Shown here piece by piece: positions 13,612-60,606 of a DNA stretch of 64,000 nucleotides. Below the pieces are notes generated by a model. It ran no database searches, was not told the DNA's origin, and worked only from the letters and a program-made list of their open reading frames with translations. The position numbers were made by a program, and so were the translations under genes. How positions within the stretch are numbered: the stretch's first letter is position 1; the number at the start of each line of letters is the position of its first letter. This DNA comes from Trichuris trichiura (taxonomy: Eukaryota; Nematoda; Enoplea; Trichinellida; Trichuridae): contig JBAJFE010000026.1 in the NCBI GenBank assembly GCA_037903355.1, forward strand, positions 3,844,001-3,908,000, read 5' to 3'.

Positions 13612-13929
13612 GAAAGACAGGATGTCTTTTAACAGGCCTGAACAGTTTCATAGTAGATCTTCAGATTCACGGGTTTGACCTGTTGGATGTATCTGTAAGT
13701 AAACTTCAAAGTGCCCTACCAACGGGTGGATGAGCAAATTGTAAGAGAAAATACAAAACAATTTGTATACAAAAATACAAAAATGGAAATAGATACAGAA
13801 CAATTTGTATACAAATTGTTCTGTATTTTCTCTTACAATTTGCTCATCCGCCCGTTGGTAAAGCACTTTGAAGTTTACTTACAGATACATCCAACAGGCC
13901 AAACCCGTGAATCTGAAGATCTACTATGA
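13612..13929. mobile_element. Hairpin insertion H1 with 12-bp target duplication
   Basis: A short leader (13,612-13,647) is followed by a long arm (about 13,648-13,770) whose inverted copy runs from about 13,795 to 13,929. The centre holds further short palindromes built on TTGTATACAA. The 12-bp direct repeat AACTATGCTTTC flanks it exactly (13,600-13,611 and 13,930-13,941), as a target-site duplication would. The arm sequence differs from hairpins H2-H8 and has no convincing ribozyme stem, although CTGAAGA and GAAAC occur at the arm end. A single, unpaired relative lies at 24,149-24,250. Similar architecture suggests the same mode of movement. Confidence 0.75.
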
Positions 13930-14302
13930 AACTATGCTTTCAGGTAATAATGCATTCATGGCTTTCCTCCCTTTTGTAAATTGCGACACAACTGCGCACT
14001 GCATCGCTCCCTCCGTCGCCCCCTAGGAAAGACTAATGTACAGTGACGTGCAAAAAGCGTGAAACTGGCATCGCCGAACAACGGCGATAAACCGTGGTAA
14101 CTAAATGAACATTAGCAAAATGGTGGCAAGGAACCAAAAACCATGTATGAACAGCTGAGTTAAAGTCAACCAACCACGTTGATGATGAACAGGAACGGAC
14201 GACAATAAATAAATGTGGCAAGCAATGGAGATCAACCAACACGGTAAACTAAGAGTGACGAATCAAAGGCGTCAAAACGAGTAGAGTCAGCAGCAGTTAA
14301 GT

Positions 14303-15265
14303 CAGTGTTTCCCAACCTTTTTGGAGCCAGGGCCCCCTTTCCCGACCTTCAACTCGCCAGGGCCCCCCGTCATTCTCCCCAATGTAATTCTCCTGCTTCT
14401 GCTATCCTCAGGTGCGCCTACTGCGGTTACGTTGTTGTGAATTTGTACAAGTAGTTCAACACTTGAAACAGGCTGCAGAATGTAGAATTGACTTTGCTGC
14501 CTACCGTGTATGCCAAAGAAAAAACAGTTAAGCCGGGCCGTCATTAAAAGCCTTATTAACCTGCGGATCTTGTCAGCCACAAGTAGGACCCCATCTTTTG
14601 CGCTGTGAAAGTTGAGTGTGCGATCAATGGCTGGAAAACCTGCCGATGCGAAGTCAACGCTGAATTTCTTTTCTATACTAGAGCGAAATGGTTAGTAAGG
14701 AAGCCGGCTGCCATATACAGCGAAAGCTCCTTAACGATATTCGAAGCCTTTAACGCTTTTAATTCTTTAGTTGGCACTGAAGGCGTTCTTTTCGTATTGC
14801 TGGACTGAAACCGGCTAATTGCAGATCAGGGAGCCTTCAGAATACGGGCGCCGCATTGGGTTTCCTCTTCGTCAATTTTTTGGGCTGTTAGCAATGGTAG
14901 CGCAATATGTAAGTCAGGCTGCAATGCTGTTCTCAGGGCTGCGCAACACTGAATCTAAATTCAGTATTTCCTCGGAGGAAGACGACAGCCGCTTGATCTT
15001 ATCTCAGTGCGATGAGTGGGTATGGTGCAGTGCTACTAATTTATCCGCTTCTGGCTTGATAGTCGTCAGGAGTAATCACAGGTCGCCTTGCCTCACTATC
15101 CTGAACGGCAGGATCGCTCTCGTCCTGCGGCACCGACTAACAGGAATCTCCTGAGGCCCCCCCTAAGCTCCCAGGTATCCCCTAAACCCCCAATTCTTCC
15201 CAGGGCCCCCTTCAAGTTTTCCGGGGTCCCCAAGGGGCCCCTGGGACCCCATTTGGGAATCACTG
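14303..15265. mobile_element. Non-autonomous hAT DNA transposon
   Basis: The element begins CAGTGTTTCCCAACC and ends, in inverted form, with CAGTGATTCCCAAAT, the style of hAT terminal inverted repeats. The next 70-90 bp at each end are rich in C or G runs and also partly inverted. An 8-bp near-duplication flanks it (AGTTAAGT at 14,295-14,302 and AGTTAAAT at 15,266-15,273, one mismatch), the usual hAT target size. The inside holds only short frames (92 codons minus, 111 codons plus) with no transposase motif, so it depends on an enzyme from elsewhere. Confidence 0.85.
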
Positions 15266-15273
15266 AGTTAAAT

Positions 15274-16462
15274 ACTGGCGGTGAATAGAATGCGATGAAC
15301 TAACAGCAGAGAATGAATCTGCAAGAGAAAAAAGGAATGACGCAACATATTGAACGAACGGCAGGAAAATAATAGTAGCGAACCAAATGCGCTGAACTAA
15401 TAAAAAGCAAAGAATAGATCAGCAGCGAACGAGCGATGACGATACAGCCTCAGGGTAGAAACGGCAGTTCCTCCAATCCATAGGGGAACTTAATTGATCG
15501 TCAGCGGTCGAACAGCGAAGGGCAAGCGTTCCCTATCTCCGATTAGTGCGAGTGAAGCGCCCGTCAACTTGAAACGTACTTCAAGCAGCGCTGGATAGGC
15601 TTGCTATGTTCATATGTTCGTTTTCCCTTGCTACTTTCATGGACAGTTAAAGAATAGGCTCCATGTGACTTAACAAGATTATCAGGTCTGCTGTCAGGCT
15701 AAGTTATTTAGGGTAAACTAGTACACTACCGACATGGAACCTGAGCATTTTAAATTGGCACTTGGGTTTTACCGCAGCCGTACATGGGCTGTACAGTTTG
15801 GTAAGTGCATTTTGTTGTAGTTATGATTTCCATTGTTGGGTATTTTTCCGATGTAAATGTATACATTTTTAACAGTTTTGGAAGTAAATCACGCGAAAAA
15901 AGTTCATCTCTTTATTTTTCAGTCATTCTTAAATGAACTTTACTTGCTACTTAAGCCGATTTTGATCTCTTCATGTTAGAAGAACATTTTATTTTAAGAG
16001 GAGTTGTTTTTTAAAATTATACGGTTATGGCACTGAATTCACCTTACCTCATCTGTTAGATTTGGAAACTCTTTATAGCATTTTGTGCATTAAGCGCATT
16101 CTCATAGGATGCCCATTTGATTTGGGTTTTTAAAAATCAATTCATCATTTTCTTCAACAAGAACGAGTGTTGCATGTCATAAAGTGCATTTCATTCTAAA
16201 ATACAGCTATGTAAAGCGCCTTGCGAACTGACGCAATATGTTCTAGTCCCTTGGCATATGTTTCGTCCTAATGGCCTTATAATTTATTATCTGTAAATTT
16301 TTTCTTTCTCGCACCGTCATTACCTATCCTAAAGGTAGGCATATTCGGTGCTAAATTAATAAAGCATGTTGGATACCTGCTAGTTCAATCAGTTCTGTTT
16401 GACGATTTAGTTTTCTTTTTTCGAAGTAACGAAATTTCCCTGTTCTAACAACATTTACTATG
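15274..16462. other. No recognised feature
   Basis: AT-rich sequence with no long frame, no clear exon and no repeat that I can support. Confidence 0.4.
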
Positions 16463-16496
16463 CAGAGCTTTCGGAGCTAGTGCGCTCCTTCATCTG
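16463..16496 (-). ncRNA. Hammerhead-ribozyme-like core of a PLE end
   Basis: On the minus strand the sequence reads CAGATGA, one extra A, then a stem GGAGC/GCTCC around a six-base loop, then GAAAGCTCTGC. This has the layout of the hammerhead core CUGAnGA - stem II - GAAA, with one base changed (CAG for CUG). It lies about 480 bp downstream, in transcription sense, of the PLE reverse-transcriptase remnant at 16,971-17,357. Hammerhead motifs are known from the terminal regions of Penelope-like elements. Activity cannot be judged from sequence. Confidence 0.5.
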
Positions 16497-16970
16497 TGCT
16501 CAAATGATTGGGACTGACAGAAAAGTCAGTTTTATAGACAAAAAATAAATGTAAACCTGTTATTTGTTATGGCCGTTTTAAGTAACCGATTTCACATGAT
16601 TCGGTTAGTTCAATTATCGCTGACCTCAGTTCCTTTGTCTTTGTTTATCACTGCATTGTGGCCAACGTAAAGAGCTTCCTTATATTTTCGTAGTTGGAAG
16701 TCTGGCTCTTTGGCGATAATGTTTGTATACAATTGGCCGTGGCAACGGGACGCGTGCCTCACTATTGCCGACGCCTAGATTGTTTCACCCATCGCCTCAT
16801 TTGGCTGAAGTTCTCGTGGTAGTCGTCCTCGCCCTTTTTCTTCTCATTCCTTTGTGGTCTTTCATGGAATTTTTGTAACAGTACAACCAACATAGATGTT
16901 GGTCGTATCTGTGAGATAAAATGTTGTCTATCTTCCTTATGTAGGAGGCGGAACTTGCGCGCCTAATTTC

Positions 16971-17357
16971 TTAAATGACCACTGGTTTATCATTTGGGGC
17001 CAGCCTGATCTTGTTATTCCTGATAATGGATTTCAGAGACGCAGCGCTCTTAGAGTAAACTTGATAACCAATGGTTCTGCCCACACGCTTAATTTTCTTT
17101 CTTAAACCTTCATAGTAAGGCAGTATAAGTAGTGGAACTGTCGGTGTTAGCACATGTTCCACTGGTTTGGCAAACGCTTGTGTAATTGCATAAGAAACCA
17201 GTGCCGCTGGGTAACTGTTGCTGAAGAAAGTTGTTTTTACGTGCTCTAGTTCTTCTGGAAGGAAATCTTCATTGCAGGTAGTATTCGCTCTCTCTACCAC
17301 CCCATTGATTAGCCTCTCATTACTCATCGAGGATAATGTGGTGCGCTTGAAAAACCT
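16971..17357 (-). pseudogene. Penelope-like reverse transcriptase C-terminal fragment
   Basis: The minus-strand frame of about 128 codons matches the thumb end of a Penelope-like element reverse transcriptase. It has a charged helix (EELEHVKTTFFSNSYP) followed by ILPYYEGLRKKIKRVGR, the conserved LPY-x-x-G-x-x-x-K-I-x-R block of these enzymes. The catalytic part upstream is absent or unrecognisable, and a stop precedes any GIY-YIG endonuclease. The fragment lies about 400 bp upstream of the EGF-repeat gene on the opposite strand. It is inactive. Confidence 0.75.
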
Positions 17358-17827
17358 CGTAAATGGCTGCTTTTTCTGCTGCCCTTTTTATCCCACAGTT
17401 TCGCTGAACAGGTAGCGATCGCAGGAGTGCAAGGTGGCAGATGTCTCGCTGAAAGCTGTACTAAGGATTTTTTTGTCTGTTGAATAACGCGCCATCGCTA
17501 ATGGGATTATCACTAATGCTGCTGCTCAGCCTGATCTCGATTACGCAAAGTTGCGCAATCCCGTTGTGTGCGTCCTCCCGAGCAAGAACGTTACAAGATT
17601 TAGAAAGAAATGTTCAGTGCGCGCATGCTTCACATTTAGCGCTTATCTCCTGATTTGATAGTCTTCAACCTTGTTCTTCTTCAGCCAGCCTGAAACTCTT
17701 AATTTACGTTTTTTGCTTTTAGCAATTTTCGTCGAGCAAGCAGTTTGGTAGATATCGCTGATGCGTGTCCATAATCATTTCATACACTACGGTTCAACCG
17801 ACTCGGTTTTTTAAAATACAGCATAAA

Positions 17828-18556
17828 ATGGATTACATACTCAGATTACTTTTGGTGACCCCAAAATGTTTGAACGGCGGTGAACGGACAATGATAGGAA
17901 AGTGCAGGTGTCCGAAATATTTTTCTGGTGACGATTGTAGCGTGAAGCAATGTATCAACGGAGGCAGCCTCAGTAACGTCAATAAAACTGTTTGCATCTG
18001 CTCGGATTCCCATTACCGTGGAGCTCACTGCGAAATTGTTCAATGCGAAAACGGTGGTATTGAAAACGGTTACGGTGGTTGTGACTGCCTGACGAATTGG
18101 TATACAGGAAAGTTTTGTCAATTTTACAGCAGTTCTTGGAGCATTTTATTCGGCTGTTTGGGGTTACTACTTTTGTTGGCACTTGTATACATTGCCTGTC
18201 GTTGGTACTGTTCCTTTTTCAACAATGTTAATAGCCGATCCAGACGTGATCTATTTAATACTCTATCTTTTCGCCCAGAAGACACAAGGTTCACTTTGAG
18301 AGGCGTAGATGTTAATGGCAGCATTCCTCTGTCCTTTCGTATGAGTAAGCCTTTTGGAAGGAGCAGAACGCCCAATGCCGAGAGAAACTATCCTCCTGCA
18401 AACCCGAAAAGCTACGCACCAGAAAGCCCACCGCCCACGTACGAAGAAGTAATTCGAATGTCACTGTTGCTAGAACAGCGTGGGGGTGCACCAAGCACTT
18501 CGTCTCACTTTCCAGCGGTAGCAGGTCTTCAAAGTGTTGCCAATGATAGAACGTAA
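17828..18556 (+). CDS. EGF-like repeat single-pass membrane protein with PPxY tail
   Basis: The frame is open from 17,765. The ATG at 17,828 gives a short hydrophobic start (MDYILRLLLV) that could be a weak signal peptide, but an upstream exon joined at an AG near 17,822 is equally possible. Three consecutive repeats follow, each with four cysteines in the pattern C-x-NGG...C-x-C-x(8)-C, so they are EGF-like units lacking two of the usual six cysteines. A membrane segment of about 24 residues (SILFGCLGLLLLLALVYIAC) follows, then basic residues and a cytoplasmic tail of about 120 residues. The tail has SPPPTYEEV, a PPxY motif that in other proteins binds WW domains of NEDD4-type ubiquitin ligases. 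It should sit in the plasma membrane with the EGF units outside. I cannot name the orthologue. A decayed partial copy lies at 21,713-21,901. Confidence 0.75.
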   Translation: MDYILRLLLVTPKCLNGGERTMIGKCRCPKYFSGDDCSVKQCINGGSLSNVNKTVCICSDSHYRGAHCEIVQCENGGIENGYGGCDCLTNWYTGKFCQFYSSSWSILFGCLGLLLLLALVYIACRWYCSFFNNVNSRSRRDLFNTLSFRPEDTRFTLRGVDVNGSIPLSFRMSKPFGRSRTPNAERNYPPANPKSYAPESPPPTYEEVIRMSLLLEQRGGAPSTSSHFPAVAGLQSVANDRT

Positions 18557-19137
18557 ACTTTGCGCAATTGCAACATGCTCTAATTTACGTTTTAAACGCC
18601 TTTATTTTTATGAATGGGATGTTTTACGAAAATTCAATTTGGACAGATAGCGCGTGATGGTGTGCGCTTCGCAACATGCTTGGCATAAAAATCCTATTCG
18701 TTGTCTCTTGTTACTTTGGCACTAACTCTTTAAAAACAACTTTTACTGTATACTGTCACTCATTTTCTTGGATATAGTTAGCTTTGATACTTTTTTTTAC
18801 GTTTTATTAAAAGGTGTACGATGCAAGCAACTTCAGTCGTCATCCGTCGCAGAATGAAGCACCAGAGCCATAAACTTTTTAAAAACGTTTGAATTCAAGC
18901 CGTCAAGAGTCTGAAGGTTTTCCCAGTACGGCGGCGCATTGAACAACGTGTTGCCTGAAATAGTTGGTGCTTATGACTATCATGGAAATACTTTGCTTAC
19001 TGTTTCGACAGTTAAACTAGGTCACTTAACTAACAATGCTACTACGTTTTAATTTCGAGGATACTTAAAGCAACCAGATACCTTAACATACTACTACATA
19101 CTACTACATCAACTTAATCGGTTTATGTTTAGTAATA
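18557..19137. other. 3' flank of the EGF-repeat gene
   Basis: AT-rich sequence with no coding signal. It probably includes the 3' UTR; ATTAAA near 18,808 could be a polyadenylation signal. A short TACTACA repeat lies near 19,090. Confidence 0.4.
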
Positions 19138-19157
19138 GTATATATATATATATATAC
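19138..19157. repeat. (TA)n microsatellite
   Basis: About ten TA dinucleotides run directly up to the outer inverted repeat of the Tigger locus. Tigger elements insert at TA. Confidence 0.8.
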
Positions 19158-21271: not shown

Positions 21272-24200
21272 TGCCGTGCAAAAGATGACGTCACTATTTC
21301 ACGCGGGACAAACCGCGTTGTATAGAATCCGCGGATAACGAGGGCTGACTGTATATTGAAATGGACGCTGAAAAGAAAAGTAAAGTTTGTTTTATGGTAG
21401 GATCCATTTGTTCTCTGGTGCTTCCGGGTCCACCCTTGACCGATCCTCTCGTAGGAGGGCCGGTCAAGGGTAAATCCAAAGTGTCCAACGGGTTCTACCG
21501 TCAAAAACTATGAAACAGTTACAAAATTCTGTGTACTGAAAACTGAAAAGAATAACCTGAACGTTAAAATACGTGCACTCGACTGAAAATTTGTATTAGC
21601 GGAATAGCGCCTAACGATGGATTATTTACGACTGACTTAAAGCGTTGGCCAGCTAAACCTTATTGTTAAAAACTTCATTTTTTACACAATTTTACCGTGC
21701 ATGGTTGGCTGCCTGTTGTCTATTCCGCCCAGAAGACACAGTTTCACTAGGGGAGCGCAAACGTTAAACGCACTATTCCTGCTCTATTTATCGATATTGG
21801 TAAGCCTGGAAGGAGTAGAACGCCGAATTCTGAAACAGACTACCCTCCTGCAAAGGGGAAACAGAAAGTACCAAATTCAACAAAGCTATGCGTTTCTTTA
21901 AATCCATACAAAAAGTTTCAATTAAATCTTGTTCCACGTTATTTTAAGTAACCAGCGGTACTTAACAAAATGTGAAATGCGCCGTGTACGATAAATGCAG
22001 ATTATCTCAGCCTACAAAAAGCAATAAAAAACTATACATAAAATGCTATACAGTTTTTCGTCTGCTGTAATCACTCTCATAAAGTGGTACAAACAGAACC
22101 GCCTACATTCACTGGTAGTCACTTGCGCATACATTGACTGCAACAACAAATTATCAGCTTACTGGTATCGTGCCACACTATGTTCTTAACGCCATCGCTT
22201 CCACCAACTTTCGTAGTATTCAACTGCAAAACACAGAAGTCGAAATTGTTTTCACAACATTGTACGCATTGACACACGATCGGAGTTGGAAGGACTATAG
22301 GGGAACTCTGAAATGCAAGCATTTGATGTTATACAAGTGCAGCTTCAGCAAGAAATGTGCGAAACTTCGGTTAAGCTTCATTTCGCGTTATAAGTGAAGG
22401 AATGAAACTGAAGTTAATATTACATTAATACCAACTAATGCTCTACTATTCTATTTGGAAGCAGAATGACGTACAGTTTTCCGTTCAACAATATCGCCGT
22501 TTGATGCTCATTTCAGCCACCTTATAATACCGCACGTAACTTTTGCGATGGCGGTCAAAAGACTGTGCTGAAATATCAAATGCTTGAAATACTGAAAGCA
22601 TAAACCCTAAATGGTTCAAAAATTGGAATGGTCGAAATCTCAAATAGTCATTACGGGATAGAAAGGAATACCTGAATGGACGAAACCTTCACACGATTTT
22701 AATTCCTGAAAGGACACGTTTCTGAAAAGGAAGGAACTCCGAACGATCTGAAATCCCAGAAGCCAAATCTCAGGATTGGATTGAAAGCCCAGACAACCAA
22801 ACGCTTACGTCAAGTGCCTTTACTGTGACTCTTTTATACTTATAGTTGCTATGCAAAAAGGACAAGGAGTCCCAAAGATCATCTACATTGGTACAGGACG
22901 GCAGGATCGCGATACAAGGACACCTCTATAGTGGAAGGAAATTTGCTATTCAGCAACTACTGTAAAAACCCCCATAAGTTGACCACCCAACGGACTGGGG
23001 AAAACTGGCCAACATAGGTGGTCAACATACAGGAAGTGGGTATAAATGGCTCGGCTAACGTGCGGACAAATCAACTGCCCAAACTTCGGTCAACTTAGGG
23101 AGTTGGTCACCATATAGGAGTGGTTAACTTCGGGGGTTTTACTGTATTATTATATACGTGAACATGAACCGTAAGAAGGTCCTGGCCATTCAGTTTTTTC
23201 TTCCTGTTCGACAGTCTTGAAAATGTGATTTCTTCTTACGGGACCGTATATTTTCATAATGCAAAGGTTTTATTACGGAGTAGTTCCCGTTGTAATGCGC
23301 GTAAAATCCGGAGCTTTCGGGTCGACCGGGACCCGTCTTCAGCGGATTCACAACCGCTGAAGACGGGTCCCGGTCGACCTGAAAGCTCCGGAGTTTACGC
23401 GCATTAAAATGGGAACTACTCCGTAATAAAACCTTTGCATTATTCGACAGTATGACCATTCCGCATTTCATCCAGTCGTGGTTTCAGTCATTCGAGATGT
23501 TGAACATTCGGTATTTCGAGTTGCGGTTTATGGCCCAGACCCAACTTTTGTATCCTTGATTGCAGGGTGCAATAGGCAATCAATATAATCTTATTATACC
23601 TACTGTTCCTATCAACTATGCGCGATGACAACTGTTCACCTTTCCATCAGGTTTTCTAGGCGGAGCTTTTCAGGGCAGTTCGTTTCTCATCAGCGCCGAA
23701 TGGAATTAATGAACTGGTCAAAATTACCAACAAGCAGGATAAACTATTACAAAGGTGGGATACTATTTTGAAGCGTACAAAGTTTGACGTGAAGAACGGA
23801 AAACACTCAGGGCTTTCGAGGTTACCTTACCTCGTCGTCAGCGCAACCATTTACGATCGTACTTTATTTTATTGACAGGTTATAGAGCGTACTATATTCA
23901 ATATACTAATTTTCAAAAGGTTTAGAAAGACACAAGAGTACCGTTTCTTAAACACAGAGTGCTTTGTAACCGGCATGTGCTTCATGTTTGGTAAATCTTG
24001 CACGGTTTTTCCCCTTTTTTGTGTGATGTTATCTGCAGTTGAAGCTGGAGCTGAAAGAGCTCCTCCATCTCATCGACGACGGAACTAGAGCACCAAAAGC
24101 TCTGAATTAAAAGCTAAGTGTATTGTTTCTGAATTTTTCCTAATAATCGCTCATCCATCCGTTGGTAGAGCAACTGTTTCATGTAATTATAGATACCAAC

Positions 24201-38961: not shown

Positions 38962-38974
38962 TGCTTCCTGTTAC

Positions 38975-39180
38975 GTTTTGAAGATATAGTTTCTTCGTAT
39001 GGGACTGTATAATTTCATTGGGTTGCTTCTTTTTATACGGATTTTGAGTCCCATTGAAAAAGTTTTATTACTAAATTCTTCGTAGCTTTCGGGTCGCGTT
39101 TGGACCCGAAAGCTACGGAGAATTTAGTAATAAAAGTTTTTCAACGGGGTTCAAAATCCGTATAAAAAGAAGCAACCCAA
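38975..39180 (+). mobile_element. Hairpin insertion H3 with 13-bp target duplication
   Basis: A leader containing TTCTTCGTATGGGACTGTAT (38,992-39,011) precedes two inverted arms of about 79 bp (39,017-39,095 and 39,103-39,181) separated by 7 bases. TGCTTCCTGTTAC flanks the unit exactly (38,962-38,974 and 39,181-39,193). The arm tips keep GACCCGAAAGCTACGG, the 3' half of the hammerhead-like core, but the CTGAnGA half is missing from the centre. The ribozyme should therefore be dead in this copy. Confidence 0.85.
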
Positions 39181-39193
39181 TGCTTCCTGTTAC

Positions 39194-42819: not shown

Positions 42820-42913
42820 TGGAGGATAGGCAGATGTAGTTGCCTATCGTGGTGTTTTATACCACTGACAAACGGGTTAAGGAGCTTAGGGATATGAGTA
42901 ATTACACGAAAAG

Positions 42914-43012
42914 TGCTCGTCCAATAGGAAGCGATGTTAAATGTCATTGTTGGAACCTGCATTTTTCAGTGATTTTGGAGAGTTGCAGTATAACCAATGA
43001 ACATGAAACAAG
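42914..43012 (+). repeat. Dispersed repeat R, copy b
   Basis: Shares GCTCGTCCAATAGGAAGC, GATGTTAAA and GAACCTGCATTTTTC with the copies at 31,848 and 54,044. Confidence 0.6.
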
Positions 43013-44865
43013 AAAGTTCTGGTTTATCTGCTGACATTTTCGCTCAGTGCATTTCTACTTATTGAATCTCGCGACGCTTTTTAAATTTATGCAGCCGACC
43101 AGTGCTAACTGTAAAGCTTGAGTTTCCGCCCAACGTTGCATGGAAATGTATTGCTTTTTCACACAGTAAAAGACTTGATATTGGTTGACCTATGGCTTGG
43201 GGTTTTCGCATAAACTATACTTAGGCTGTGTAATCACTTTGCACTCTGAATTTCCTTCGGCTTCAGTTAAACCCTTAAAAATCCCAAAATGTTCTCATTT
43301 TTCCTCTTCTCATTACAAATAGTTGGCATGCCAACACCCATAGTCGTTGAAGACTAATTTTCTTGTAGCACCTTACCCTAACTACATTCTGTTAGAGGAC
43401 TTTTTTGCGGGTTATACTCAGGTACAGCTCAGAGAACGCGCGAGAATGCAAGCATACGAAAATGCCGCTCAGCATGTTTTAAGGATATGACCAGCTCTCA
43501 TAAACGTTTTGTAATACGTTTTTCAATGAGTAGGAATACTTCCTGTAAAACGCAAAACATATTACACGAACCGTGAAAATAAACGTTATTTTCCTTTAAA
43601 AATTAAAAAGCAATAAACTAACAGCGATACGTGCAGTTTGCTCCATTTTCTGATACAATGTAATTTAAAATTTTGAGTTTCTTGTAAATCCGGATGGTTG
43701 GTAAACTCGGCTGAGATAACTAATTTTCCACTGTATATTGCTTTTATTTTTGTTCGGGTCCGGCATAGATTATCTTATTTGTCATTCATCTTTAAGAATC
43801 GGTCATAACTCAATCTGTGTAAGTTGATTTAGTTTAAAAGGAAAGTTCCTGCATCGAAACCTAGAAGTATTATTGAACTGTCCAAATTGGTATTTCTATC
43901 TTAGGCCAAAAAACGTTCGCTACTGGCAATTTTTGAAAATGTGCTGTACTGAGTTCTTAAGCCCTTACTCTTCTATCTCTTTCTAACATTCAGGATTAAG
44001 GCTGATATTAGCCACATTTCCTCAATTTTAAGCAGTATGCCTGTTAACTCTTCAGTTTCTGCATACTTAATTGTCGTAAGTTTGCACAAGGCAGCTTTTT
44101 TGAGTGAAGTTTTTTGTAAGCCCGAATGTAACCGCCAAGTTCTGCTCTCAAAGAAGCTTACAAGAACACCACATAGTAACTTTGAAATAAGATTTTAGTA
44201 AGGAAAGAATTGATATTTCATGCCTGGCGAGGAATTCAATCTTCTGACTCCCAGAGGAAGCTGGCTAACTACAATCATTCAGATGTTTTGCTGTTTACAG
44301 TGCAGCTTCTCAGGTTCTTCCACTAAACGGACATAGGCAATACAAGTACTTTGTTCACGTCAAATTCAGCAGAGTAATGACATTTGTCGCTGACGTTTTT
44401 CACAGCAGAGTTTGCATAGAATTTGAATACTGATTTGACCTGTCTACTTGTGCTTCCTATAGAATTATGGCTGAAATTATTCCTGCTGCCAGGCGGACCT
44501 GTATAGCCGCTTGACAGTATTGACATCTTCAATTACCCTCCTTGCGCAGATGCTTTTAAATCGACTTGACACGTTTTTTCAGGAGCACGCCGAAAGTTGC
44601 ATCACCTCTTCAGCTTTAAATTGCTTTCTGGAAATTCCAGATACCCAAAAAGCCTGATATTGTTTTCTTGAAAAGCATTGTTTTAAGTGAACATTGCAAT
44701 TGCTTAGCTTCGAGGGCGGGCTGAGTTTTATCATCAGCACAGCATGTAGCGGCATGCTGCACTGATGAGAGCACATTGCCTTTCGGTAAAAAATTGCTAA
44801 ACGTCATACATTCATAAATAAGCTACGTTTACAATGTAATTATTGAACGTTTACTTACCTTTCAG
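43013..44865. other. Upstream region or intron of the TNFR-like gene
   Basis: AT-rich and without a long frame. The signal-peptide exon of the TNFR-like gene should lie here or further upstream, but I could not identify it. Confidence 0.4.
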
Positions 44866-46277
44866 GCGGACAGTGCGCAAGATGCAGGAAAGTCATGCTG
44901 GGAAAATTACACATATGATCTTGTCAGTGACAAGTGCTGCAGACGGTGTGAACCAGGATTTGGCGTCGCCTTACCTTGCACTCAGCTCAACGATACTGTG
45001 TGCTCCCCTTGCGTGGATGGCATTACCTATTCACCAATATCTAGCCATGAAGCTGTCTGTCGTCCTTGTTCGCAATGTCCGAGTAACTCATTCGCAATGC
45101 ACCTATGTAATGCAACGCATAATACGAAGTGTGAGTGTGTGGAAGGCTTTTATTACCAGCCAGAGCAAAACATGTGCTTGACATGTGGTCACTGTGGACC
45201 AGGCGAGTACGTGACAAAAATGTGCTCTACAAGAGGTAATACGCAATGCCATCCATGCCCTCAAAATACTTTCATGTCAGTCACTAACTTGGCTGATTCA
45301 TGTATCCCATGTTCGACATGTCGCAAAGGTGCAGCAATCGAGGCAGCTTGTACAGCGAGCAAAGACACCCGGTGCTCCGGTTTGTCACCTTCTGTAAATA
45401 AAATTCACTTTCATAATGATATTTTTTTTTACAGACGGGGTAACTGTTTCTCATACTGATTTACTCTCTGACGAATCAGATCAGAACTTGATTGTCATAT
45501 ATTGCGTCGTCTTCGGCATTGTGCTAGCTTCTCTCATCATCTACGTTCTGATGAAGCACTTCCAGGTGAAATCTTGGTCTTGCTACTGTTACAAGGCACC
45601 GAAATCCGGTCACGAGGCCCCCACAGGCCAGCAGGAAAAAGCCAAACTTCGTAATACTTGCGCCCCTGGCAAAGCCATGACTATTGCAATAAAGGATACT
45701 TCTCCTTTGTTGTGTACGGTCACAATGTGTGGTTTTCCTTAAGCCTTTGTGACTTCTTATTTTAGTGGATCATGAAACTTCTGTAAGTCAATTACCCCAG
45801 TGTCTGATTGATCAGTTGGAGCAGGCTTTTCAAGAGCCAGGAAAGCACAACCGGGAGCTCGAAGCCTTTGCTCACGCACTTCGTAAGTGAGATTTCGAAG
45901 CCTTGTTAAGAATAGGAATTTTCATTTGACTGTTGAAGAACGCAAGAACATTTCTGCAGCCGTTCTGCAGACTTATTGTTTTGTATATATTGTGTTATGT
46001 ATAGACATCAAATAAATCAATAATTCATGCGCACCAGTCTTGTTTGTTCTTCTTGGATGTTGTTTCAGACTTCGATCGAGGCCAATTAATGCACTTTCAA
46101 GAACTATCTTTGGTCAATGGCACTAGTACCGCGCGTGAATTGTTTCGGGAACTGTGCAAAGATAAGTTGTTTGGCGTTTGTCCTTTAATTAACGCGCTGA
46201 AGAGAGCGAAACGGATTGATTTGGTTATGTTAGTGCAGAAGAGCATTGAAAACACAGAGACGGTACTCATTGTATGA
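44866..46277 (+). CDS. p75 neurotrophin-receptor-like TNFR with death domain (5' partial)
   Basis: This is a TNF-receptor-superfamily membrane protein closest in layout to p75NTR/TNFRSF16, which signals for growth or death through adaptors that bind its death domain. Exons: 44,866-45,379 (after TTTCAG), 45,435-45,713, 45,766-45,882 and 46,069-46,277 (TGA). Phases agree at each join, and the first two introns are 55 and 52 bp. The second exon could instead end at 45,650. Exon 1 encodes four cysteine-rich domains with p75-like spacing (CCRRCEPGFGVALPC, TVCSPCVDGITYS, KCECVEGFYYQ, QCHPCPQNTF). Exon 2 has a 22-residue membrane segment (45,488-45,553) and a basic, cysteine-containing juxtamembrane region. 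Exons 3-4 encode death-domain helices, with LINALKRAKRIDLVMLVQKS as the last. The C terminus ends in hydrophobic residues (TVLIV), which could bind a PDZ domain. The exon with the start and signal peptide was not found. Confidence 0.85.
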
Positions 46278-47339: not shown

Positions 47340-48770
47340 AGCATGGCACTGGTCTTTTAAAAGTGCACAAACCAGATGTCCAGTTAAGACCAATAGTCCC
47401 TACAATAAACAGTACCAAAAGTGAACTCAGTCGGTATTTAAAGGTCATCAAACCTCTAACTGGCAGGGAACCGTCATTCATCAGGAATAGCAAAACTTTC
47501 GTCGACGAAATACGAAACTGTCACCTGGACCTGGACGAGATTCTAGTTAGTTACGACGTCAAAGAATTATCCCTCAGCATTCCTATTTCAGATACTCTCG
47601 ATACTTTATACAATCTTCTCAGTGCGAATCCAAACCACTTCAGCAAAGCTAAATTAAATCCTTTTCATATCGTCAAGTTAGTGCCTTTCTGCATGCAAGC
47701 AGGCAACTATTTTATCTGTGATAACAAGTTCTATAAGCAGTCCAGTGGGGTCCCTACGAGCAGCTCATTATCTCTTGTCAGCAGAAACCTTGATGGAGAG
47801 TTTTGAAAAACAAATATTTGAAACAGAAAATAGACGAATTGCTACATACCTTTTTAAAAGGTATGTAGACAACATATTCGTAATTATAAAGAATGGTAAA
47901 GAAAAACAATTCCTACACTTCCTTAACACCATTCGTCCAAATCAAACTGTATTCAGAGTGGAAAAAAAGAAAATAAAGTCCTTCACTTTCTTGATGCTTT
48001 GATTATTCGTACAAACCAAGGGCTTAAAACCAGTCTACAGGAAGCCCACTCACACAGACTAATACCTCAATTTCTCCTCGCATCACCCAAGTTCGATAAT
48101 GCATGGAATTCTTTCAGGAATGATTGATAGAGCAATCAATTTGTACAACCCCGATTATCTCCAGTCAAAGGTTAACCACATTAGAAAGATCTACAAAAAC
48201 GATTATCCAAAACCTTTTCCTTTTTCCTTTTTCTTCGTAACGGGTTTTGAACATTTTTTTCTAAATCTTTTCGCGGTACTTTTAACCCGTTGTTTAGTTA
48301 ACGTTTATTGCAAAAACAATATTTACGAAACCCGAACGGCCGGCGGCGAGGCCTGAAAGCTTTGTAAATAACGTTTTTGCAATAAACGTTAATTAAACAA
48401 CGGGTTAAAAATACCGCGAAAAGATTTAGGAAAAAAATATTCAAAACCTTTTATTTATTAACTGCGTCATCAAGTACAAGTGCTTTGCAATCGTGAGTTA
48501 CTCAAACCAAATACTTCGTGCAATCAATGTTTAGTTATTCCCTATGTGGCAGGACTAGGCGAAAAGATTGTCTGGCTTGGAAGACAAATAGATTTCAGAT
48601 TCTTTTTCAAGAGTTTTCCCAATCTCAGATCAATTTTTCGTAAGGATAACAAGAAAGTTCCCGCAAACAAAAAGCAGGGTTAGTTTATTCGATGAAATGT
48701 GCTTGTACAGGAGCCTACACTGGGGAAGCATGCAATACTCTGCAACATAGGTCCAATGAAAATATAAAAA
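47340..48770 (+). pseudogene. Penelope-like element with reverse transcriptase and GIY-YIG remnants
   Basis: The order of a PLE is preserved. Fingers: KPDVQLRPIVPTINSTKSEL, 47,366-47,425. Palm: ILVSYDVKELSLSIPI, about 47,541-47,588; the block SSGVPTSSSLSL, about 47,741-47,776; and the catalytic motif, where YVDN (47,862-47,873) has Asn for the second Asp. Thumb: VIPYVAGLGEKIVWLGRQ, about 48,537-48,590. After a frameshift come VYSMKCACTGAYTGE and LQHRSNEN (about 48,680-48,760), the start of the GIY-YIG endonuclease with its CxC motif. Hairpin H4 is inserted between palm and thumb. Frameshifts and the altered catalytic motif make it dead. Confidence 0.85.
48219..48442 (+). mobile_element. Hairpin insertion H4 inside a PLE, 10-bp target duplication
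   Basis: AAAACCTTTT is duplicated on either side (48,209-48,218 and 48,443-48,452). Removing the insert joins the PLE coding sequence KNDYPKPF to the following thumb region. The unit has a leader with TTCTTCGTAACGGG (about 48,231-48,245) and inverted arms of about 75-90 bp (outer limits 48,243 and 48,448). The centre contains GGCCTGAAAGCTTTG, a leftover of the 3' half of the ribozyme core, without CTGAnGA. Confidence 0.85.
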
Positions 48771-48783
48771 AACCCACTAGTTA

Positions 48784-48962
48784 GAATTGTTGTACGGATC
48801 AGCTACCCGTTCAGAGTTTTATTGTAAATGCGAAGCTTTCGGGGAACACCAGTCCCAGTCTTCAGTGCATGAAAAATGGGCTGAAGACGGGGACAGGTGT
48901 TCCCCGAAAGCTTCGCAATTATAATAAAACGTTGAACGGGTAGCTGATCCGTACAATAATGC
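48784..48962. mobile_element. PLE terminal inverted structure H5 with ribozyme cores
   Basis: Two inverted arms of about 80 bp (48,784-48,866 and 48,881-48,962) lie immediately downstream of the GIY-YIG remnant and just before what looks like the start of another PLE. Both arms carry a hammerhead-like core. The plus-strand copy is CTGAAGA (48,881-48,887), an extra C, stem GGGGA/TCCCC, GAAAGCTTCGC (from 48,906). I see no target duplication. The position fits a PLE pseudo-LTR between tandem copies better than an independent insertion. Confidence 0.75.
48881..48916 (+). ncRNA. Hammerhead-ribozyme-like core in H5
   Basis: Core halves CTGAAGA and GAAA enclose stem II GGGGA/TCCCC (five pairs) after one extra C. 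It lies at the 3' end of a PLE, where hammerheads are known. An inverse copy is at about 48,829-48,866, with a poorer stem. Confidence 0.55.
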
Positions 48963-48987
48963 TAATTCACACACCCGTTAGGAGGTT

Positions 48988-49242
48988 ATGTTTTCAAAGA
49001 AACTCACTAGTTACAATAATGCAGAAACCATCCTCAACAATAGTAGTACTCCAATCGCACAACGCAGCAGATCGATGCTGGATCTAAAAACTGCCATGCA
49101 AAAAGCTATACAAGCCTCCGCTGTGGCGAAACACGGAGCACTTTGTGACCAGTCTCTTCAGCCAGAAGTCTTATGCTATGGAAGGAAGGATCTTTTCTGT
49201 CTCGTCCCCCCCCTCCACAAGAGCAGGCATCAGTATCAATAG
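48988..49242 (+). pseudogene. Probable start of a second, truncated PLE copy
   Basis: An 84-codon frame begins with ATG 26 bp after H5. It reads LDLKTAMQKAIQASAVAKHG and then SLQPEVLCYGRKDLF, similar to the fragment at 29,260-29,499. N-terminal parts of PLE proteins have comparable helices. The copy is cut off after about 49,240. Together with the upstream copy and H5 it would form the partial tandem arrangement common for Penelope elements. Confidence 0.45.
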
Positions 49243-51152
49243 GTAATACGCAACGATAACACTGGTCAGCGGAACAACGGGAGGGACGTCTTACTGCAGG
49301 TCACTGAACACTAGACAATGGACCATCACACCTTGTGTTTAGGCTTAGGCTTAGGCCAGGGCAGGTCAGGACGGTCAGCAGACGTACGGTACCCACTTGA
49401 TCTCCTTTGACGTTGCCGCCAAAACTTGCGGGGGGAACGAGACGGAAATGACCCGTAACTTACGTTTAAGACGGATCAAGGAGACCATGTACATTAGACA
49501 CAATGAGATATACAGTCGTGATCAAGGAGCGGATATAAGTGAAATAAGAGAAAACATTATCACACACTCCAATTGCTGCTCTTTAAATGGATTGCATTCA
49601 CGAGCACAAAGAACTAGTTAAAAGAATGGAGTAACCTATATACAGAACGACAGAGCCAAGGTAGGCCATTATATATGGAAATATAAAAGAAAAATAGATA
49701 AATTTACATGGAACAAAGTGGAATAAACATGAAATGAACTAATAACTATGGAAAAAAATGGGAAATGCGCATAACGAACATGAAATGACCAATGGCGTTA
49801 AACATGAGAAGTGGAATACTGTGCACATAGTACGATAGTATGATATACACGCAACAAGAGACCCAGGCAGCTGATAGAGAAAGATATTTTAAAAACAAGA
49901 CTATGAAACACTCGTTTTAAAACTGATTGTTTGGCGACTCGCACTTGCTATTTACATTACGTTTAGCACCGCTGAAAACAGCTCTCGGACGGCCCGAAAG
50001 GAAAAAAGACATTAAGTCGTTTGTATAACGGATCATTTCCGCAAGAAGAAAGAATTTAAAAATTTCCTCTTGTCTCTTCTCAGGTGTGGAGTTGTCGTCG
50101 ACGTAACGGTTAAACGAACAGCTTTACGAAACTGGCTTCGCTGTCGTTAGATGTCTCGTAACGCGTCGGCATACTTTGGCTTTTGCAGTTATCGGTTTGC
50201 AATTCGTTAGCATTCTGGATGTTTGTAAACGCTAAAAACACGGTTTTTTTAACCAGTAATGGTCGAGAGACGTCTACTTGTGCAAAACAAACAATACAGA
50301 ACAACTTTGGCGAAGCTTTTGACCCCCTGTTTTCGTAGAATTAATAGACCGTGGGTGAAAATATCAGCAATGAGCAGAAACGAGGAAAGCAAGTTTCTTT
50401 GAATCAATGCCTAGACTATGACAGCTGCGCGACTTTACCGCACGAACCAATGTTCATCGTAAAAAAGACTCAATACATGACGCAATCAAAAAACAATTGC
50501 CGCTGTTAGGTTAGGCTTTAGAGTGAACCGCGGTTCTAAAGTTCCCAAGCCTGCCAAAAATGAAAACGGCATCTCGCATATTACCTAATGGGAGATTCTG
50601 TGCTGCGTCCATCTGATTTGCTTGGCAGATCGCAACTATAACGAAACGGAAATAAGAGGTACGCCTGAATATAGGTTTTAGCACCTTCCCAATCCAGCCA
50701 TCAGTATCGCTCAAAAGACAACGCTTGACGAACATCGTTTTAACGCTGACGGTGGGACCGAACAGGTTTCGACAGACAAATGGTTCCTTAAATATTCGAA
50801 TTTCCGTACGGTTACACTTCCTACCCATTATTGGCTTCTGAAATCAACCAAACAAACGCCTTACCAAAAGATCAATAAGTAGCTACTAGGAAAAAACTCA
50901 GAACACTCCTACACTTTTGCAGATTTCGGGACCATCCTTAGTTCGCCTTCAACAATTATGGTTGTGGAAGCCTTACCCCGAGAATAAGTTACTTAAAGGC
51001 TGGGGAGCGGCGCCAGACAGTTCTTTGAAATAAAAATGCTTCCAAAAGGACGTGCCATCGTAATGAACGAAATGCACCTTTAAAGGCTCCGGTTTTATTG
51101 AGATGTCTTAATACCACGACTATTCGAAACGTTGATTCATTGCTACTGCGTA
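49243..51152. other. No recognised gene
   Basis: Short frames only. The longest, 50,511-50,828 (minus, 105 codons), shows no domain I recognise. A short TTAGGC-like run occurs near 49,340 (GCTTAGGCTTAGGC), only two units, so it is not telomeric. Confidence 0.35.
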
Positions 51153-51334
51153 ACTGAAGTACAGAATGTTCAGCCCGTCAAAACTTTATTAGGCGAAGCT
51201 TTCGGGAAACCGTTGTTCCCATCTTCAGTGCAAACGTAACTGCGCAATTATATTTGCACAAAAAACGGGAACAGCACCCTTCTGAAAGCTTCGCCTAACA
51301 AGGATTTTCACGGGTTGGACATTCTGTACTTCAA
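51153..51334. mobile_element. Hairpin element H6 with one good ribozyme core
   Basis: Inverted arms of about 75-80 bp (from 51,153 and ending 51,334) share ACAGAATGT and the AGGCGAAGCTTTC tip. The left arm, read on the minus strand (51,191-51,229), has CTGAAGA, extra T, stem GGGAA/TTCCC, GAAAGCTTCGC. The right arm is degraded (CCCTTCTGAAAGC). I found no target duplication or leader. It is closest to H5 in the arm tips. Confidence 0.65.
51191..51229 (-). ncRNA. Hammerhead-ribozyme-like core in H6
   Basis: CTGAAGA, one extra T, a five-pair stem II (GGGAA/TTCCC), then GAAAGC. Stem II differs from that in H5 at paired positions. Confidence 0.5.
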
Positions 51335-51862: not shown

Positions 51863-54800
51863 CTAATCACGAACGGCACTGACATTATTTGAATTCGTCA
51901 GAGAAACATTGGCTTCTTCCAACGAGTCGCCTTCCACATCATTAAAAGTTGTGTGTCCTTCCTTTGAAGGCGGCAAACCGTTTTCGCTTCCAAGGTTTAG
52001 ATTTTCTGCCAAACCAGCACGTTTATCATCTTCATCGCCTTTGGCGACGCTTTCAGCAGGTTCAACATCACTTAAGTCTTTCGCCTCTTCTTCGCTGACC
52101 ACGCTTTCCTGCTCTTGTATACTCTCCTTTTTTGCAGAGTCTCCCTCATCATGCACGCTTGTCTGCTCTTCCGTGCTTTCCTTGTCTTCCTCATTTCCCT
52201 CTTCTTCCACGTCGCTGACTTCATCCACACTTTCCTGTCCTTCCATACTGCCGTCCTCGTTCACTTTTTCTCGTTCTACTATGACTTTACTTTCGTCGAG
52301 TTTTTCGTTCACCAGCTGATCCTAAAGTGCCAGTTAGTCTAATGTCTGTATTTCGCATTACCTACCTTTGCACTTCCCTCTTCTGTGATGCTGTTACTAA
52401 TTTCATCATCCGCCGAAGATATCTAAAATTAGTAATGAGGAAAATGTTACAGAGATGACGCGTGTCTTCGAAGAAGGCAGAACCTTAACGTGAAGCGCCA
52501 CCAGTCATACTTCTGAAAATGTAAGTTTCTACGGAGCTACTTACACGTAATTTCTTATTGGACCAGGGCTTGCCGTGTCATTAGGAAGACTAGAACTAAG
52601 CGTATTACTGAGCCTCTTAGGGTATGTTTATATTCATGTTTTTCATTTGCCTGCTAATCCGTCTTACCGGTGGGCACATGCGCGCAATCCAGCTTTTGGC
52701 CTCTTTGACTTCGTAGCTCACATGCACATGTTGTTGACTGAAGCAGAGATGGGACAGGTGGGTCCAAAAAAAGGTACAAAAATTCCCCTGAGAAGAGCTC
52801 GGCTGTTTTCGGGACGCTGTTGTAGAAATACTCAGGAACTCCGCCGTTGAATGGAACTGTAACAGTTTGCGCGACAACTACGAGAAAACCGGTCAGAGTT
52901 TCACGCGGCGGAGATTTGTTGGCAACTCGCCCAGCGCCCACGGGCGATACGCGTTTACTTCATATGGATCAACGAAGCCGCGTCGAGTTATTATTGCTTT
53001 GCTTGCGCTACGGAGTAGTTGGCTTAACGATTAAACGTACAGTCACTTATGTTCGTGATCGAACCAGCACTCAAACCTTGAACCATTTTTTCACGGACAA
53101 GAACTACTGCATGGATGAAGTCGGAGCTTTCCAAGAAGTCTTCAGTGGCCTCACCAGATCACTTGACTTCACGGTAGTGGTGGATGAAAGAACGTTCTCT
53201 GCAAGCGAAGCTGCAGCAGCAGCAGGATCTTTTTGCGGTAAGGTGACCGCAGCGAGGTGTGCAGCAAAACGGAATAATGCTTTTTAGTGCTCATGGACGA
53301 GTGTAGCAGTAAGACCCTGGCACATCGACATGTTCGCCCAGGAGCCTCGATCATCATGGGCCAGTAATGAGGGTATGCCTGTTTGTCCAGCCATGGTTCC
53401 ACGCATCTGCGTGTGAACTACTCAGCCAATTTCGTCAATCCGCAGATGAAGACGCTGCAGTCATATTTACGTGAATTTATGGGGAGACGAGAGCTGCGGG
53501 AGTATGAAGGTCCCTTCGCATAACTCATGGAAAACATTGACCCTTTCCGCCGCTGCAGTGATGCGCCCATGTTTTTCCTGTCCATATATGACGGTTGTGA
53601 TTAAAACCTGTTACTCGATGGGTTAATTCACCGTTCGCATCTGTTTCTCGCACGGGCGACATTACGGCTGCGAAAAAAAGCGAAATTATGATGCAACTAT
53701 ACGTCCACTTCACTATGCTCGAAAATGCACGCGATTTCGACGTAAAGCGACGAGCGGAAAGTCGAATCCAGCAACAGGATACAATTACGCGGCCGTTTCT
53801 CTGTAACACGTAATGCAGGAACTCTGTGGCAGTGGGCAGTTACCTGGACGGTATTGTTCTCCACCTTCGTTCACGCTTACGCTCTTCTTATTCACTCTTG
53901 ATTTCTACTACACTAATCTCCGTACTGGTTGGGAGAGAAGACACAGGCAGCGTTTAGGAAAGCTAATTAACCGTGTAACGCGATGATCACAGAAACTGCG
54001 CTTATCTGCATATCGATAGAACAAGCCGGAAGTGCGCACAAACAGCCAATATGGGGCTATGTTAAATTACGCAACGGAAACCTGCATTTTTCTGAAATTC
54101 TGAGCAGTTACAAGATGACTGGTGGGCACTTAACAGAGATCTAGCGATGGTTGCAGCTCATAAACTTCAGTGAATACTACAACAGTAGACATGATGGTTA
54201 CAGTTGGGACCAGAGAGTTTCATGATATATTAGACCAAATTTTTCCGTTGAAAACGTGGTGTCTTGGTACGGGACCATATATTTTCATAATGAAAAAACT
54301 TTATTACGGAAAGGTTCCCGTTTATGTATATAGAAAAGAGACTACGGAGTTAATCTTTACAACTTTAGACTGCTGATGACAGGTCTCGAATGACCTGAAA
54401 GCTCCGGAGTCTCTTTTCTATATACATAAACGGGAACCTTTCCGTAATAAAGTTTTTTCATTATGAAAACTTTTTCCGTTTTACAGTAAGCAGTTATTTC
54501 CACACTAGGATCCCATAATTACGTAGAAAAAGAAAAGCTGTATTCACATCACAGGCGAAGTACAGCGAAGCTTTTACCCCGACCCTTGACCGTCATCAGC
54601 GCGAACATTTTGTTGGTTACCATCAAGTCTGGCTTTTAGGAACAGCTAACTCCAGCTTGCCAACCAACGCAGGTTCTGGTCAAGCTTAATCTTGACTCCT
54701 CGAGGTTGACACGCACGTGGCTTGGCATCACAGCAACCTTCCTTTGTGTTATCCTCGACGGTAGTCTAATCCACAATAGCAAGGGAAAGTCCAAAATCAG

Positions 54801-58756: not shown

Positions 58757-60110
58757 TGCGCCGTCTCAGGCGAACACCGCACAGTATGATTTGCAGGTAT
58801 TATTTCGCGAGCCAGTCAGTACTAATCAGCTTTCGACATGCGCTGGAAATTTCAAACTTTCTGTAAACGCATTGTTAGTTTAAAAAGTTTTTCTACTGAA
58901 GTCAGGATAATTTAAAATAGAACTATCGCATGATTTCACTTTAAAATATGGCAGTTTCTTAATCTGGCACAAGTGTATCAAATAGAAAACCACGTACGAC
59001 CCGATGGATCCGTTCTTTCTGAACAACCTTTTTGTGTTTTTCCTCTGTTTGCTGCAAACTACACGGTAGTCCATAAAACAATCGGGTTTGTTCTACTCCA
59101 AAGTATATATAGTAGGACAAGCATCTGCGCGTAGTACTTTGCCGTTCATGTCGCAGTTTTGTTTCCTTTTATTTTCTGCTGTCGCAAATTCAATTTTTTG
59201 TTCCTTCTAGACATGGAGAGAATGCTCCCTCGGGTTATCCCTTAATCGCAGCTATTGGCAGACTCGGAATGCACCAAGCATATGGCTACCCAGTTGGGCT
59301 CTTGCTAACGCATTTCATCTGCGCATCGACGCTTTCCTTTTCGTGGAAAAAGCGCATTTTGTTTCTACGGCATTTGTAATGATTGTGCAAAAGGCATCGT
59401 AAAGCAAAAGGTTGGTCGTCAGGCTCTGACAGACAAAATATGCCACCTCAAGCATTTTTGCTTGTTCTACCTCATAGCCTGCGCTGACTCACGAACGCTG
59501 CTTCTATGAAAGGGGTGATGCAGTAATTAAGTTCATGGTTTGCTCTATCTTAGCACTGAGCTCGCTTAGCCTGATCAAAGAGCATTTTTGGTTCTGCTTA
59601 TCTGTAGATATCGTTTGTGATGGTGCCTTCACTGCAGCTTCATTTTAATACTTTTTGGTCGGTTTCATTTTTCAGCTTACACGGAAAGAACAAGTAGCGG
59701 TAACCGACCGAACGACAAATTCCACCAACCAGCTCACACGAATTTGCCAGCACTTTAGGCGCTGGAGTGACGGTCGGTACGAAACACTAGGCGATGCGTT
59801 TAATTTCTGCAGTGTCAAAAGCAAAGTACCGCGCCGTAATACCGCATATGTACTTTTTCAGTGTTGTAGTTTGTACGTGTTGTCGTTTATCATTTAGTTG
59901 TAGTGAACTTTGGAAGTCAAGTAGCATGAACGGAATGGTATAATGGCTAATGTCCAAGATTCCGTTGCTCTTGGCAACTTGAGCCGGACCGGGAACTCAG
60001 TTGAACCCTTCAGTACCTGTTTCACAAGGACATGGCTCCACCAGTTCTCTTAAGCGGGACAGAAAATTTTGCCCTTAACTATCGAGAGCGATTTTAAAAT
60101 TCTCGGCATT
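58757..60110. other. Upstream flank of the SH3BGR-like gene
   Basis: Presumed promoter side of the SH3BGR-like gene. Only short frames, and no core promoter element that I would defend. Confidence 0.4.
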
Positions 60111-60212
60111 CCTTGTAACGGGCATGTGTTTCATGTTTGGTAGATCTTCTACTACTTTTCTCCTTTTCCTGTAAAAGATCTACCAAACATGAAATACATG
60201 CTCATTACAAGG
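60111..60212. repeat. Inverted repeat with about 42-bp arms
   Basis: CCTTGTAACGGGCATGTGTT...GGTAGATCTT is inverted at 60,172-60,212 with a few mismatches around a short pyrimidine-rich centre. A single-arm relative lies at 23,967-24,020 (CCGGCATGTGCTTCATGTTT). It is another small foldback element, with no visible target duplication. Confidence 0.65.
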
Positions 60213-60353
60213 CGCCCCATGTTTCAGCGCATTCTAAGTTCCATTAACCATAACTGCTTTGAGAGAACTTACTACAGAGGTGAAGATTACATTCAGGTTT
60301 CCGCTGCTGTCCCGTTGGTCATTGTGCAAGGAATTGATAATGATATCAGCTGT

Positions 60354-60606
60354 TTTGTAAATGTAACTTCTTGGTACGGGACCGTATAGTTTCATGTCGA
60401 GTTTCTTTTACGGAAAGTTTGTCCCGTTGACAATATTTTTATTCCGGAGCTTTCGGGTCAAACGAGACCCGTCTTCAGCGGTATTAATATAAAGCAATGA
60501 AGTAACGAAAATTCTTCGAATTCGGGCTTTCGGGTCTCGTTTGAACCGAAAGCTCCGGAATAAAAATATTGTCAACGGGACAAACTTTCCGTAAAAGAAA
60601 CTCGAC
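60354..60606 (+). mobile_element. Hairpin insertion H8 with 14-bp target duplication
   Basis: ATGATATCAGCTGT lies exactly on both sides (60,340-60,353 and 60,607-60,620). The leader has CTTCTTGGTACGGGACCGTA (60,368-60,387) and is followed by arms of about 75 bp (outer limits 60,393 and 60,609) around a spacer of about 50 bp. The left arm tip on the minus strand carries CTGAAGA, extra C, stem GGGTC/GACCC, GAAAGCTCCGG (60,444-60,480). The right arm keeps only the GAAAGCTCCGG half. Confidence 0.88.
60444..60480 (-). ncRNA. Hammerhead-ribozyme-like core in H8
   Basis: Minus strand: CTGAAGA, one extra C, five-pair stem II (GGGTC/GACCC), GAAA, GCTCCGGAA. Compared with H2, the last stem pair is G-C instead of G-T. 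Confidence 0.55.

Follow-up and report, generated by a model that had tools for sequence, protein, structure and literature searches.

Six hairpin units in a Trichuris trichiura contig

We analysed a stretch of 64,000 nucleotides from the nematode Trichuris trichiura (contig JBAJFE010000026.1, positions 3,844,001 to 3,908,000), hereafter the window, in which six small hairpin units lie together with decayed copies of Penelope-like elements (PLEs). An original prediction, made from the letters alone, had described the units as a mobile, non-autonomous family dependent on PLEs. All six were recovered at the predicted places, each between exact direct repeats of 9-14 bp, with lengths of 206-318 bp:

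13600..13941, + strand, unit 1 with its 12-bp duplications AACTATGCTTTC (13600-13611 and 13930-13941); element 13612-13929 (318 bp), tail about 13612-13643, arms 13644-13773 and 13804-13933, the right arm overlapping the duplication by a few bases
23207..23451, + strand, unit 2 with its 9-bp duplications TTCGACAGT; element 23216-23442 (227 bp), tail about 23216-23255, arms 23256-23345 and 23354-23443
38962..39193, + strand, unit 3 with its 13-bp duplications TGCTTCCTGTTAC; element 38975-39180 (206 bp), arms 39016-39095 and 39103-39182
48208..48452, + strand, unit 4 with its 11-bp duplications CAAAACCTTTT; element 48219-48441 (223 bp), arms 48239-48329 and 48361-48451
54240..54480, + strand, unit 5 with its 10-bp duplications TTTTTCCGTT; element 54250-54470 (221 bp), arms 54282-54349 and 54402-54469
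60340..60620, + strand, unit 6 with its 14-bp duplications ATGATATCAGCTGT; element 60354-60606 (253 bp), tail about 60354-60391, arms 60392-60471 and 60531-60610

Independent inverted-repeat detection gave arms of 68-130 nt that are 86-99% complementary. The predicted leader, which we call the tail, does lie outside the arms; it is present in five units, as claimed, but is much diverged in unit 4. Unit 1 represents a diverged PLE family with its own version of the leader, reading MKLFRPVKRHPVF in sense. We use reference coordinates in which the tail occupies about 10-45 (about 35 nt). On this scale, the tail-less arm of unit 5 extends to 158 and its tail arm to 113, and in unit 6 the tail arm extends to 174 and the other arm to 131. 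The turn of unit 3 sits within the small GGGTC/GACCC stem of the arm itself.

The tail and the arms are PLE sequence

We searched the whole genome (72.7 Mb) with the leader pattern at up to 3 mismatches, using the reversed pattern as a control. This gave 1,271 leader matches (648 forward, 623 reverse), and the control gave 1. The mitochondrial COX1 encoded in the assembly agrees at all of 448 aa with the representative sequence of a Trichuris cluster (accession suffix TRITR), whereas other Trichuris entries show 87-88%; this points to a whipworm, most likely T. trichiura or a near relative. The five leaders of the window are indeed co-oriented, but this is a local feature, the strands being even genome-wide.

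The predicted link to PLEs proved right: the leader corresponds to the first 13 or so codons of a PLE ORF (open reading frame), and the arms correspond to the sequence directly upstream. In the long copy at locus L081, the ORF starts with MKLYGPAPRSYIYK, and the leader is the same stretch. The tail of unit 6, read in sense (60407-60351), matches residues 1-19 of the L081 frame at 89%. A second long copy, L069, contains an ORF with a reverse transcriptase (RT) domain, an antisense leader at its 3′ end and, by eye, an 11-bp duplication. The RVT_1 domain was found in the L069 and L081 ORFs at 6e-14 and 2e-13, respectively, and the L081 ORF contains KADKGN, YVDDIF and a YIGETG segment, which we take to be marks of PLEs. 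Pfam reports no GIY-YIG domain for L081 even at E 5; the domain was found in an aligned relative, P0062, with which the YIGETG segment aligns. Among the matches listed, the L081 protein shares 41-56% identity with Trichuris relatives and 31% with D. virilis P0102. A direct repeat of the pseudo-long terminal repeat (pLTR) type measures 136 bp at 95.6% in L081 and 48 bp in L082, and none was listed for L083 and L084. The PLE features observed are an RT ORF, a tail of about 35 nt within the ORF start, the pLTR-type repeat of L081 and variable short target duplications; the RT was identified in the long copies L069 and L081, the units themselves encoding no protein.

PLE protein matches in the window lie at the following places:

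47351..49588, + strand, decayed remnant of an older PLE that extends from the RT to the C-terminal part, host of unit 4; tblastn pieces with 41-68% identity to the L081 ORF
24515..25393, + strand, decayed PLE reverse-transcriptase fragment (28.6% identity, E 7e-23)
16616..17312, - strand, decayed PLE C-terminal fragment in two pieces (31-42% identity, E 1e-34)

Unit 4 sits inside the ORF of the older copy, and its empty site could be reconstructed: fusing the flanks at one copy of the duplication restores a match to the PLE protein that spans the site (57% identity in 91 columns; the alignment contains gaps and a stop).

Many PLEs are reported to have a hammerhead ribozyme in the pLTR; Rfam listed none in the window or in seven PLE loci. 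By eye, a hammerhead-like core of the form CUGANGA-C-GGGUC...GACCC-GAAA with an extra C occurs in arms, for example at L078:8950-9300. Rfam was also tried as an identifier of the units and rejected; it returned sub-threshold matches only, mostly microRNA (miRNA)-like because of the inverted arms.

Anatomy of the insertions genome-wide

The sample was chosen via the tail: 90 of 100 listed places (of 1,271 in total) were retrieved. Together with four units of the window and five neighbouring ones detected at up to 4 mismatches, this makes 99 tail-bearing units. Window units 1 and 4 are outside this set, being too diverged for the leader pattern. Seventy one-tail hairpins (44 of subfamily A, 21 of B and 5 of C) were compared further, their turn points and centres by eye.

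The two ends of the units are asymmetric. The tail side starts most often at reference 9 or 10 (51 of 99 units). In 75 of the 99, the opposite arm reaches below reference 62, and in 70 of these 75 it stops at 39-60, the inner edge of the tail; in 5 of the 70, the arm also includes some bases of the tail, about 6 at most. The remaining five rows comprise L093 and L097, which have tails at both ends and were counted on both strands (four rows), and L058+199, a misassigned neighbour.

The predicted mobility is borne out by the flanks. An exact flanking repeat of at least 9 bp was present in 59 of the 70 one-tail hairpins, compared with 0.9% of shuffled flank pairs; at a threshold of at least 11 bp, the figures were 48 of 67 (three microsatellite sites set aside) and 0.17%. 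The mode of the duplication length is 14 bp. Because the duplications vary between copies, they are target DNA and not part of the repeat, and the units do occur alone, not only as the ends of larger elements; neither of the conditions that would have refuted the original prediction came true. As the original prediction held, this is no terminal-inverted-repeat transposon. A foldback element or miniature inverted-repeat transposable element (MITE) would explain the long inverted arms, but the variable duplications, the asymmetric ends, the ORF-derived tail and the PLE identity make a DNA transposon of this kind scarcely credible.

Hairpins are the short end of a continuum. Both arms are below 200 nt in 62 of the 70 hairpins, or 62 of all 99 units, the commonest form in the sample, and hairpins are continuous with long palindromes and with body-containing PLE copies that have the same two ends. 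In L081, one flank has the tail end with a long cDNA, the opposite flank has 29 nt counted from the tail-less start, and the copy comes with a 14-bp duplication. L081, L083 and L084 are body-containing copies delimited by this pair of starts. Among the 24 units without an opposite arm reaching below reference 62, 11 were examined in 10-kb stretches: inverted ends were present in seven (L070, L072, L073, L075, L076, L079 and L080) and were not found within these stretches in four (L069, L071, L077 and L078). By eye, L019 resembles a simple truncated copy flanked by a long duplication, and L013 contains an inverted piece of 20 nt only.

This continuum bears on the part of the original prediction that was not supported, namely a discrete family resembling short interspersed elements (SINEs), in which PLE enzymes would transpose a ready-made hairpin. 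The abundance of short hairpins fits such a family, as does a partial centre common to L015, L016 and L046. However, turn points and centres mostly differ across the 70 hairpins, where a family would share them, and the arms track the PLE subfamilies. Arms and leader are the PLE's own sequence, and the hairpins grade into body-containing copies, so we regard a separate family as very improbable.

Some sites are compound. At L008, L021 and L058, two units are adjacent at one target with tails outward, and their duplications overlap in L008 and L058; the flank beside the tail-less end may have been recut at such sites. Two adjacent units with tails inward, together with an (AAT)n tract, occur at L043. 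Near-identical flanks surround the same truncated unit at three places (L025, L026 and L037), which seems to reflect a larger repeat carrying a nested unit. L043, L089, L093, L094 and L103 sit in microsatellites of the (AT)n or (AAT)n type, which fits the reported AT-rich preference of PLEs.

Paired arms carry one tail and agree with each other

Among 29 convergent pairs of arms no more than 700 bp apart, 28 have exactly one tail (p 6e-8 under independence); the exception, L093, has two. Three longer convergent pairs read TN, NT and NN for tail and no tail, and of 76 perfect arm matches, 40 have the tail. Within a unit, the two arms are concordant at 323 of 337 common variable positions (96%), compared with a mean of 58% and a maximum of 73% for shuffled partners. 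Both arms stop early at the same place in nine pairs, where 1.5 are expected. The one-tail rule, the concordant arms and the common ends are what two cDNAs on one RNA would predict.

A variant of the same two-sided scheme has two separate RNAs, one per strand. It would accommodate L097, which mixes subfamilies A and B, the two-tailed L093 and the 14 of 337 common variable positions at which the arms of one unit differ. Two-tail and no-tail pairs should then be frequent, yet 28 of the 29 short pairs have one tail. The arm agreement also speaks against separate RNAs, though RNAs of one source locus would agree as well; such RNAs explain concordance, not the one-tail rule. On balance, we consider the two-RNA variant unlikely, with odds that overlap those of the main reading. 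Arm distance was tried as proof of one template and discarded: own arms have a median of 0.036 and the nearest other arm 0.040, the own distance is smaller in 18 of 52 cases, and the models were not separated; the comparison at common variable positions performed better.

Self-priming has been suggested for inverted PLE junctions in rotifers (PMC3846280). Applied here, a single tail-primed cDNA would fold back, copy its own arm and stop before the tail. Arm lengths are mostly equal (longer arm left in 12, right in 15, equal in 43 of 70) and the arms have variants in common, both as snap-back predicts, and some turns lie at small natural palindromes, for example L102 with the loop AAACGA. Against this stand the 15 of 70 hairpins whose tail-less arm is more than 12 nt longer than the tail arm and so holds sequence absent from it, even if post-insertion deletions could account for part of the inequality. 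Snap-back of the tail-primed cDNA does not predict that either arm can be the longer one. Turns without a loop (L031 and L065) also count against it, as do centres such as C24:674031 and C62:359327: there, both arms run to the same 5′ end, an extra C/G belongs to each arm separately, and further bases lie between the two. Snap-back appears improbable.

Inner ends and the putative RNA 5′ end

Arm ends form a broad cluster: on the tail side, 44 of 70 arms end at reference 145-185, and so do 43 of the 70 arms that lack the tail. The putative RNA 5′ end of subfamily A lies at reference 180-183, where the sense sequence is AACACCGTG. We inspected 100 listed of the 112 genome places of this stretch: 77 read through in family context (a few doubtful), and 23 are junctions by a simple rule. 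Among the places listed, 19 of the 23 junctions fall exactly at AACACC and a G precedes 15 of the 19 (p 1e-7, background 0.21), where some of the 19 are the two arms of one hairpin. The bases beyond the extra G vary between AACACC junctions; the G therefore belongs to the junction.

Reverse transcriptases are known to add C opposite an RNA cap. We favour a copy of the RNA cap as the source of the extra G at subfamily A junctions; untemplated addition is possible.

A probable two-sided route of insertion

We interpret the units as PLE insertions that arose by two-sided target-primed reverse transcription, with a probability of roughly 75%; the claim rests on the ends, the duplications and the one-tail rule. 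The PLE enzyme would cut the two strands of the target at positions mostly about 9-16 bp apart, and each exposed 3′ end would prime a cDNA on PLE mRNA and extend toward the RNA 5′ end. One cDNA would start at the far side of the tail; the second would begin close to the start codon, some 35 nt further in, with the start sites about 140-170 nt from the inferred mRNA 5′ end. Because the starts would be so close to this end, the usual product would be paired antisense copies of the 5′ leader, full or shortened. The two cDNAs would then join end to end at small complementarities and, after repair, leave a one-tail hairpin flanked by a target duplication. If a downstream tail of a tandem or read-through RNA were used instead, the body would be included in one of the cDNAs, giving a long PLE copy. 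Both cDNAs were probably copied from one capped mRNA. The anatomy, the ORF origin of the tail, the target duplications, the one-tail rule, the variants common to both arms and, in one subfamily, the extra-G junction base are direct observations. Cutting and priming of both strands, which were demonstrated in vitro for another PLE, the copying of one capped RNA into both cDNAs and the joining of their ends are inferred from sequence.

A more specific and tentative version, which we rate at somewhat short of even odds, is that two enzymes of a dimer, each serving one strand of the target, start about 35 nt apart on a shared capped mRNA and move in convoy toward the cap. The one-tail rule would then follow because two enzymes cannot begin at one spot on one RNA. 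If this is true, short hairpins are frozen run-offs, and the longest map the transcription start to the base.

Several observations weigh against two-sided priming on one capped RNA. The sample was selected by tail and covers 90 places of 1,271. A duplication of at least 9 bp is missing in 11 of the 70 hairpins, and L069 is a simple 5′-truncated copy that lacks a second arm. Tails occur at both ends of L093 and of L097; the latter combines subfamilies A and B, and no duplication was found around it. Of the 88 arms of the 44 subfamily A hairpins, only 10 end at the putative RNA 5′ end (180-183), with 41 ending at 145-179, 27 earlier and 10 later. The extra G was examined in subfamily A only, and AT-rich sequence is a frequent end point of subfamily B arms. 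Several of the nine early stops common to both arms coincide with small natural palindromes (L040, L056, L065 and L102 among them) and may mark end annealing instead of a shared RNA end, and later deletions within palindromes may mimic part of the unequal arms. Finally, L015, L016 and L046, which lie at different targets, have in common a variant of the left arm and a portion of the centre (CAAAT before the 5′ end), which would fit occasional re-use of a hairpin as a source.

Relation to known elements

PLEs have been described as the third class of eukaryotic retroelements. The proposed scheme resembles twin priming of long interspersed element 1 (LINE-1), in which two cut ends prime cDNAs and give inverted pieces with target duplications; there, the second primer starts further inside the RNA, whereas here the starts are close and the cDNAs largely overlap. 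In older work on D. virilis, a 34-bp extension was reportedly observed.

The closest genomic parallel is in Penelope-type PLEs of Adineta vaga, in which the tail is described as an optional 31-bp extension at one inverted pLTR (PMC3846280). Those elements likewise have inverted head-to-head terminal pieces, an optional tail and palindromic junctions; their target duplications are 8-10 bp, and the pLTR takes in the first ORF codons, as here. A difference is that 62 of the 99 units sampled here, among more than 1,000 tail matches, are two short ends without a body, and the one-tail rule, the extra-G junction base and the arm concordance were measured.

In vitro, PAc (Poseidon, Anolis carolinensis) cuts and extends both strands (PMC11167929). 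Its reverse transcription begins at two adjacent sites inside the RNA, and these sites delimit the tail, which lies in the ORF start, as in the units described here. That study reports no apparent strand difference in start site, whereas the genomic pairs described here mostly have one start each. It also reports a tail stem-loop, which our folding does not support: the four tails tested fold no better than shuffles (z 0.09, 0.26, 0.53 and -0.58). It found two start sites and extension of both strands and left the completion of insertion open (PMC11167929). The sampled tails point to paired use of the two start sites: each insertion would employ one of either kind, probably with one RNA as the template for both.

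The one-tail rule, the arm concordance and the extra-G junction base in subfamily A are new here. In a literature search of titles and abstracts, with subscription papers mostly outside it, we found no report of a one-tail rule, of cap-derived PLE bases or of Trichuris PLE hairpins, and the word 'hairpin' is absent from the text of PMC12910113. Paired starts, if true, would explain why the tail is optional, why the ends are inverted and why tiny hairpins abound, and they give simple predictions for purified enzyme. Tiny PLE hairpins might be annotated as MITEs or miRNA-like loci.

Other features of the window

Further inverted repeats lie at 48781-48965, 60111-60212, 51180-51307 and 3957-4211. 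An ORF at 44818-45459 encodes four TNFR/NGFR cysteine-rich repeats (Pfam 2e-29), and 17762-18556 contains a fragment of an EGF-like protein, possibly membrane-anchored (weak Pfam matches). At 5192-6112 lies a Gag-like ORF; its CCHC zinc knuckle has a Pfam match (E 0.0018) that falls below the cut-off. Outside the window, C28:999478-999825 is a probable nuclear fragment of mitochondrial COX1, with stops.

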